Assembly (NCBI GenBank): GCA_030147925.1
Contig: JASBUK010000005.1
Span: forward strand, 1-35,369
Reading direction: 5' to 3'
Source of the DNA: Trueperaceae bacterium
GTDB taxonomy: Bacteria > Deinococcota > Deinococci > Deinococcales > Trueperaceae
DNA length: 35,369 bases
In this document: one piece after another, positions 1,502 through 17,410 of the stretch
Layout of the letters: each line of letters opens with the position of its first letter
Numbering within the stretch: position 1 is the stretch's first letter
Notes under the pieces: model-generated
Told to the model about the DNA's origin: nothing
Databases searched by the model: none
Seen by the model: the letters and a program-made list of their open reading frames with translations, nothing else
Made by a program: the position numbers and the translations under genes

Positions 1502-1630
1502 TCGTCTAAAATGGCGGTGTACCACAAATTGTGCGTCGTAGTTGGTGAATTATGTCAGGGACGTTAGCTGACTGTTTCAACATACACAGTTTGGGACACC
1601 TTCTCTAAAATTTATTCAGAGGATTCAAGT

Positions 1631-4702: not shown

Positions 4703-4794
4703 ACCTTAGCCTAAGCCTTCTTTTGCTTATTTGCAGGAGTGTACTTAAATAGCGTTTTTAGAAAGCATTCCTACAGAGGGAGGCTAGAGGGAAA

Positions 4795-4994
4795 GTAAAA
4801 AGTGGTTGGTGGAAAGTAGTTAGTAGGAAGTAGAAGCTGGAGACTTTCCAGAGGTGGTAAAAATCAGCCAATTGAAATTTGTCAATTGTTGAGTGCTAAT
4901 TAATGAAGAACTCAGTGAGAGAATGCCTAGAAATGCCTTTCCTACCTACTACTGACCACTCACCACCTACCATTAACCACAAACCACTAACTTC
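4795..4994. repeat. Heptad-repeat palindromic element, copy 1
   Basis: The left arm (4795-4843) is seven degenerate heptads of the form GTRGNNA, for example GTGGTTG, GTGGAAA, GTAGTTA, GTAGGAA. The right arm (4939-4994) is eight heptads of the complementary form (TTCCTAC, CTACTAC, TGACCAC, TCACCAC, and so on). Between them is a 95-nt core (4844-4938) containing CAATTG twice as a small inverted repeat. The same architecture with a homologous 95-nt core recurs at 17223-17401. No open reading frame covers it. It fills the gap between dxr and the M50-CBS gene; the rest of that gap shows nothing else I recognise. Confidence 0.8.
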
Positions 4995-6205: not shown

Positions 6206-6274
6206 TTTTACCTATTGGGGCAAGTCAGTGCCAGTTTTTGTGAAGCTGCTCCAAATTGGGTTTTAAAGGACAAA

Positions 6275-6309
6275 GTGAAAAGTAGAAAGTAAAAAGAGGA
6301 AAGTGTGAC
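6275..6309. repeat. Short array of degenerate heptads
   Basis: Five consecutive 7-mers read GTGAAAA, GTAGAAA, GTAAAAA, GAGGAAA, GTGTGAC. This matches the left-arm heptads of the elements at 4795 and 17223 but has no core and no right arm. The IS3 relic begins a few bases later, so it may be an element truncated by that insertion. Confidence 0.55.
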
Positions 6310-6317
6310 CTTGCCCT

Positions 6318-6595
6318 GGAGTTTAGTGGACACCGAGTTAAGCTGCAAGTTCAAAGTGAGCCTCCTCAAACTTAGCCGGACTTTGATAGCCCAAAGTTGA
6401 GTAACGGCGACGACGATTGTAGAAAAGCTCGATGTAGTCGAACAGGCTTTGCCGGGCCTGTTGCCTGCACTGAAAAATTGCGACTGCTCTAAGAAGCTTG
6501 TAGGCAATGCTTGGCCTATAAGCTGCCCAACGGGGCAGACAAGTGGGACAATACAACATTGTCAGGCGTTCGTTTTCTCGGTACAATTCGCTCAC
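6318..6595 (-). mobile_element. IS3-family insertion sequence relic
   Basis: On the minus strand, 6338-6460 encodes QARQSLFDYIELFYNRRRR followed by YSTLGYQSPAKFEEA, the unmistakable C-terminal tail of IS3-family OrfB integrases (YIxxFYNxxRxHSxLGYxSP), ending in TAA at 6338. The upstream end of the same frame (about 6560-6595) reads SELYRENERLTM, like the OrfA tail LRRENERLRM. Everything between (the integrase catalytic core) is missing or scrambled. The stretch GTTTAGTGGACACC at 6320-6333 just beyond the stop may be the terminal repeat. Dead element, cannot transpose. Confidence 0.75.
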
Positions 6596-17069: not shown

Positions 17070-17222
17070 TTTACTACCAGGCCGCAAGGCTAAAGTGGAG
17101 CAGGAGTGCGGTAAGAGTAAGGCTATGGGATAGGCGCTTGGGTTTCATGTTGGATACTACGCCAATGAGCATGAATGCTGCAAGCATCAATTTGCTGAGA
17201 CTGTTCCAAATTGTTATGGTCA

Positions 17223-17401
17223 GTGGAAAGTAAAAAGCGGAAAGTAGAAAGTGGTTAGTAGGAGGTAGAAACTAGAGATTTTCCAGAGGTGGTAAAAATC
17301 AGGCAATTGGAATTTGTCAATTGTTGGGCGCTAATCAAAAAGAACTCAGCGGAGAAACTTTCTAGAAAGGCTATTCCTACTTACCACTCACCACCAACTA
17401 C
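17223..17401. repeat. Heptad-repeat palindromic element, copy 2
   Basis: Left arm 17223-17278: eight heptads (GTGGAAA, GTAAAAA, GCGGAAA, GTAGAAA, GTGGTTA, GTAGGAG, GTAGAAA, CTAGAGA). Right arm 17374-17401: four complementary heptads (TTCCTAC, TTACCAC, TCACCAC, CAACTAC). The core 17279-17373 is 95 nt and matches copy 1 at about 54 of its first 60 positions without gaps. It lies between the ACT gene and the Yip1 gene; the remaining sequence from 17070 to 17222 shows nothing recognisable. Confidence 0.8.
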
Positions 17402-17410
17402 CCCTTTTGT

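Follow-up and report, generated by a model that had tools for sequence, protein, structure and literature searches.

The look-alike stretches in the window, the whole 35,369-nt stretch of DNA analysed here, belong to a multi-copy mobile-element family of about 130 small gene-less elements in a single Trueperaceae-like Deinococcota genome. The unit is an IS-derived MITE at least in origin; its best copies share terminal repeats with a plain 91-bp MITE and carry target-site duplications. Taken as a whole, the element is probably a non-autonomous foldback-type MITE, mobilised in trans, with subsequent decay of the ends and exchange of the cores. The family is a variant of the foldback-type MITE rather than a novel class of RNA or of regulatory element.

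Anatomy and copy number of the element

Two copies lie in the window, at 4791-4991 (copy 1) and 17221-17405 (copy 2), and in both of them opposed heptad arms flank a core of about 95-100 nt, as the first-pass annotation of this DNA had described. The copies aligned by blastn over 173 nt with 82% identity (E 5e-41); 6 mismatches, counted in the alignment over core positions 1-60, bear out the 90% identity given earlier for that part, and the number of heptads differs between the two copies, as had also been stated. The features of the window are as follows.

1505..1512, no strand: target-site duplication TCTAAAAT, left copy
1513..1603, minus strand: plain 91-bp MITE with both of the same terminal inverted repeats and no heptads
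1604..1611, no strand: target-site duplication TCTAAAAT, right copy
4745..4790, minus strand: piece of a second core type (GCGTTTTTAGAAAGCATTCCTAC..) directly next to copy 1, assigned by eye
4791..4837, plus strand: copy 1 left arm, degenerate heptads GTAAAAA GTGGTTG GTGGAAA GTAGTTA GTAGGAA GTAGAAG
4838..4939, plus strand: copy 1 core, type A (model match 4816-4953, 123.6 bits)
4940..4991, plus strand: copy 1 right arm, heptads in complement orientation (YACNACY)
6242..6307, plus strand: third heptad element, left end only, with terminal repeat GAAGCTGCTCCAAATTGGGT and A-rich heptads, then cut off
17196..17218, plus strand: copy 2 left terminal inverted repeat, decayed (GAGACTGTTCCAAATTGTTATGG), score 10 against the controls' 99th percentile of 9.0
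17221..17267, plus strand: copy 2 left heptad arm
17268..17375, plus strand: copy 2 core, type A (model match 17251-17388, 138.1 bits)
17376..17403, plus strand: copy 2 right heptad arm, about 4 units

No terminal repeat was recognised at the ends of copy 1. The truncated third element is directly adjoined by an IS3-type integrase remnant (6338-6595, minus strand; rve_2, E 1e-7), and the junction sequence beside it, ACCTTGCCCTGGA, recurs in an interrupted heptad copy elsewhere in the family (L017).

Searching the genome of origin (2.98 Mb, 151 contigs) with copy 1 by blastn gave 46 matches. A covariance model built from 25 copies, in which structure was so weak that it acted effectively as a sequence profile, gave 132 matches at E <= 1, with 66 above 70 bits; such numbers far exceed chance. 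The genome-wide search for the core that had been proposed as a check thus returned abundant further copies, in agreement with the first reading of a dispersed intergenic element with a spreading core. The same model had 0 matches in 60 relatives from the family and order, among which there was no second genome of the same genus. The plasmid and phage collections held no match to the element, and the exact core pattern was not found in GTDB contigs, a set from which the genome of origin may have been left out. The closest matches to the protein of the neighbouring dxr gene came from a Trueperaceae MAG (67%), other Deinococcota MAGs (66%) and then Thermus (60%), placing the host among the Deinococcota, close to the Trueperaceae, and not among the Cyanobacteria. 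Heptad elements or IS256 copies lie at or close to the ends of a number of contigs (e.g. C98, C96, C137 and C149), and their counts in the draft assembly are therefore probably too low.

The two arms are not equivalent. The left arm is better conserved and A-rich (GTAAAAA/GTGGAAA/GTAGTTG/GTAGGAG), particularly toward the outside (..GTAAAAAGTAAGTGGAAAGTAGTTGGTAGGAGGTAGAAACC), and the right arm is a very variable series of YACNACY units. Over 924 in-frame units the most variable heptad positions were 5-7, in a search whose pattern itself fixed much of the rest. Besides the type A core of the window we found short cores, in which the left arm is joined straight to the core end (L187, L189, L198), longer cores (L196, L197) and hybrid cores (L006, L157, L163-L169). 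The core length that had been described as preserved is therefore similar across the family, but not constant. Mosaics and internal deletions are usual in families of non-autonomous elements. In several copies (L016, L018, L022, L027 and others) the heptad element is followed in tandem by a second core type (AAAATTGGCCTAACACCTCACACCTTAGCCCTCGCTTTGTAGGG) and one more heptad arm of like orientation.

Terminal repeats, target-site duplications and a candidate transposase

Some copies carry, outside the arms, a left end Y (GAAGCTGTCCCAAATTGGGTGTT) and a right end X (CACAATTTGTGGTACACCGCC, X reversed), which are imperfect inverted repeats of one another of about 22 bp. Pattern searches of the genome found 50 X-like and 43 Y-like sites, and pairing them yielded two sets, one with 24 plain MITEs (68-91 bp) and the other with nine heptad elements (116-260 bp). 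Complete copies begin with Y and the left heptad arm and end with the inverted right heptad arm and X; the core between the arms is absent, short or about 95 nt long. Three of the loci (L248, L279 and L280) are short pure foldbacks without the 95-nt core, which shows that the core is optional. Another core type (AACGAGGATAAGGGAATAGAG..) was seen between or beside the same terminal repeats at L259, L268, L250 and L171.

Exact target-site duplications of 7-8 bp flanked 5 of the nine heptad elements with both ends, or 7 when one mismatch was allowed; for the plain MITEs with both ends the numbers were 15 and 16 out of 24. When flanks were paired at random in 2000 shuffles, there were 0 exact matches; for the heptad elements the shuffled means were 0 exact and 0.2 with one mismatch. 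Exact flanking duplications so far beyond the shuffles are a signature of transposition, and a transposon origin of the complete copies is well supported. As in a MITE, the elements are short, multi-copy and free of a transposase gene (complete copies of 116-260 bp, 132 model matches), and such duplications are present; terminal inverted repeats stand at both ends of nine copies, with most other copies lacking the pair. As in a foldback element, inverted arms of tandem subrepeats, variable in number, surround a middle domain. The core-bearing copies are less complete: a terminal repeat above the controls' 99th percentile was present at either end in 17 of 67 and at both ends in 3 of 67, and the other 50 had no recognisable terminal repeat. 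Copies without terminal repeats had no target-site duplication at their estimated ends, which were placed by a crude boundary finder.

IS256 is the prokaryotic relative of Mutator. Both IS256 and Mutator-like elements produce target-site duplications of 8-9 bp (PMC3169594, PMC5225508). The genome of origin has ten matches to PF00872 (IS256-type transposase), and one IS256-type copy, located at the C21 and C23 contig ends, terminates in GAGGGTGTCCCGAATTTCG, which matches Y at 17/21 positions and X at 13/21. At 7-8 bp, the observed duplications are close in size to the 8-9 bp usual for the IS256 family; other IS families are also known to produce duplications of that length. One similar end, duplications near the usual size and transposases in the same genome are what the element has in common with the IS256 family and its MITEs. 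It differs from them in that no autonomous element with matching X/Y ends was found in its own draft assembly (151 contigs) or in 38 other genomes of the family; an autonomous partner with the same ends is usual for a MITE, but not required. Judged by end similarity and duplication size, the IS256 family is the likely candidate for that partner. The first-pass annotation had named a match to a known IS or RNA family as evidence against a new element: no RNA family was matched, and the IS side came close, with IS-derived MITE ends and duplications. By eye, IS256-type insertion sequences were also seen inside heptad elements near the core motif CTTTCTAGAAATG (L021 on C140; L162 and L289 on C137), and heptad elements may be preferred landing sites of such insertion sequences.

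We propose that the element would be mobilised in trans by a DDE transposase, the IS256 (Mutator-like) family being its most likely source, and that one such transposase would have moved both the heptad element and the 91-bp MITE with the same ends. After insertion, heptads would be gained or lost in the arms, the outer ends would decay or be deleted, and cores could pass from copy to copy by gene conversion or homologous recombination, for which arms and core would supply the homology. The element would then be selfish DNA, tolerated where it does not hit promoters, and any hairpin or terminator effect would be incidental.

Core exchange, folding and alternative explanations

In the closest core pairs (98.5%, 97.7% and 94.7% identical) the arms have diverged by the second to fourth heptad from the core, and the flanks are unrelated. 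Near-identical cores in different arms suggest that cores are exchanged between resident elements by gene conversion or recombination, because sequence that had merely transposed would bring its own arms; this exchange is the weakest part of our account. The earlier suggestion of slippage in the arms fared less well. Identical adjacent heptads were below expectation in the arrays of this genome (10 vs 18.6 expected), identical heptads three units apart were above it (22 vs 10.7 expected), and simple one-unit slippage is insufficient to explain this, with the caveat that the arms share ancestry, which makes these neighbour statistics pseudo-replicated and no more than a hint. Common descent of the arms may by itself account for the difference between the three-apart and adjacent patterns.

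The evidence on ends and cores also bears on an unlikely but substantial alternative, that the heptad-core unit is an independent repeat whose heptads mediate its spread, be it in recombination, in gene conversion or in error-prone repair, and that copies with terminal repeats arose when a MITE captured it. The 50 of 67 copies without a terminal repeat and the occurrence of identical cores in different arms would fit such a unit, as would inverted heptad hairpins without X/Y ends in three other genomes (G009, G042 and G068) and in Leptolyngbya. Repeated capture, however, does not readily explain nine complete copies whose ends keep a constant position with respect to the arms (L007, L023, L026, L161, L170 and others), or partly decayed ends (L009, L013, L015, L022, L150, L158) that look like descent with decay, and several complete copies have heptads but no 95-nt core. 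We therefore prefer the foldback-type MITE.

It is very unlikely that the family consists of selected cis-acting structured RNAs, attenuators or terminators with the arms as stem. Copy 1 did fold better than its shuffles (z -2.8), an excess to be expected because inverted arms must fold, and the elements are intergenic and depleted between divergent genes. Nevertheless, the named hairpins of the core had 73.5% paired cells, exactly the value obtained when letters were reshuffled among copies (73.5%), the covariation score of the core was 0.146 vs 0.150 in shuffles, and the RNAalifold consensus reached only -1.5 kcal/mol. Left and right arms paired at -27.6 kcal/mol vs -18.3 kcal/mol for unrelated DNA, but a left arm paired with its own right arm no better than with those of other copies, which indicates foldback geometry without co-evolution. 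Terminator-like sites were not above chance, orientation relative to genes was mixed, and the Rfam scan returned two tRNAs only, so that the element matches no Rfam family. Covariation supporting a conserved fold was thus not found, and selection on the core, as proposed in the first-pass annotation, is unsupported insofar as it would act on a structured RNA. Compensatory-looking core hairpins picked out by eye in single copies (CCAG..CTGG / CTGG..CCAG, CAATTG..CAATTG and GGGA..TCCC) were no better than shuffles across 42 copies. Extremely improbable, in our estimate, is that the heptads would serve as binding-site arrays for a DNA- or RNA-binding protein, by analogy with MacGregor's proposal for TAACTGA repeats. 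Conservation of GTRG with variable NN in the 924 units (much of it required by the search pattern) and recurrence of the same register in several Deinococcota genera and a cyanobacterium are compatible with such sites, but the elements lie in mixed gene contexts and, unlike the repeats of Beggiatoaceae, are not placed close to start codons. Simple ORF calls, usable around 63 copies, placed 20 of them in convergent, 37 in co-directional and 6 in divergent gene pairs; the rarity between divergent genes is explained by exclusion from promoter regions, and no function need be assigned.

Known relatives and heptads in other genomes

Foldback transposons have mostly been assigned to the Mutator superfamily in eukaryotes (PMC4079207), where Tm1 (PMC3169594), Muta1 (PMC5225508) and Tetris (PMC4079207) share with the present element inverted arms of variable short tandem repeats, a middle domain, short conserved termini and MITE-like members. 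Their duplications measure 8-10 bp, compared with 7-8 bp in the Trueperaceae element. Tetris is the nearest parallel, with termini common to a simple MITE and no known autonomous partner (PMC4079207). Unlike these three, the present element is bacterial, only about 116-300 bp long, built of degenerate 7-bp units and provided with a candidate transposase only. The nearest bacterial precedent is BrickBuilt of Porphyromonas gingivalis (PMC4596501), an intergenic MITE of 19 copies with a tandem-repeat array and IS-like ends; its 23-nt repeats (a minisatellite) run in one direction, it has a distinct leader and tail as well as ISPg-type ends, and it lacks inverted arms. Our searches of the open-licence literature turned up no account of heptad-armed foldback MITEs in bacteria. 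Since tandem-repeat-armed foldback transposons are mostly eukaryotic and mostly of the Mutator superfamily, a bacterial IS256-like counterpart would point to repeated occurrence of this end architecture across the superfamily, and its small size would allow tests of whether the subrepeats are needed in transposition.

Intergenic 7-base tandem units are also found, according to the portions of the sources consulted, as GGGAATC in Xanthomonas and GGGGA(T/C)T in Nostoc (PMC4692102), as TAACTGA in Beggiatoaceae, Cyanobacteria and Bacteroidetes (PMC4679880), and as cyanobacterial STRR heptamers. The Xanthomonas repeats form some 70-75 convergent (inverted) pairs per genome (PMC4692102). Unlike the present family, these heptamers are described in those portions without a 95-nt core, terminal repeats or target-site duplications. 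Our analysis offers a mobile-element origin for at least some intergenic heptad arrays (Cyanobacteria, Xanthomonas, Beggiatoaceae), whose role is still unsettled.

Outside the genome of origin, exact five-unit GTRGNNR arrays were present in 10 of 111 Deinococcota genomes, representing 6 of 31 genera, where the reversed pattern, used as a control, had almost no matches; a Leptolyngbya genome contained them as well. Several of these arrays form inverted pairs around a short loop (L201, L204, L211, L216, L311, L314); inverted heptad hairpins and the arm motif are therefore wider than the family described here. The cyanobacterial STRR heptamers had been cited earlier as a loose precedent. Membership of that group does not hold, the host being a Deinococcota, but with the GTRGNNR register in Leptolyngbya, once as an inverted pair, the precedent is better than stated. 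X/Y ends, searched within the family, were absent at inverted GTRGNNR heptads of other genera, so the arms may not need the transposon. We consider it doubtful that the inverted arrays of Trueperaceae, another Deinococcota family and Cyanobacteria form one hairpin class generated by a shared transposase-independent process, such as a heptad-recognising enzyme or repair pathway, and captured here by a MITE with an exchangeable core cassette. The Leptolyngbya pair (L314 in G111) consists of GTGGGGA heptads separated by a loop of some 12 nt and seems to lie within a coding gene or beside one. In another genome of the same family (G012, a single contig of 3.26 Mb), alternating GTAGTCA / GTAGCCA arrays occur at C1:768549, 1266803, 1824851 and 2208391.
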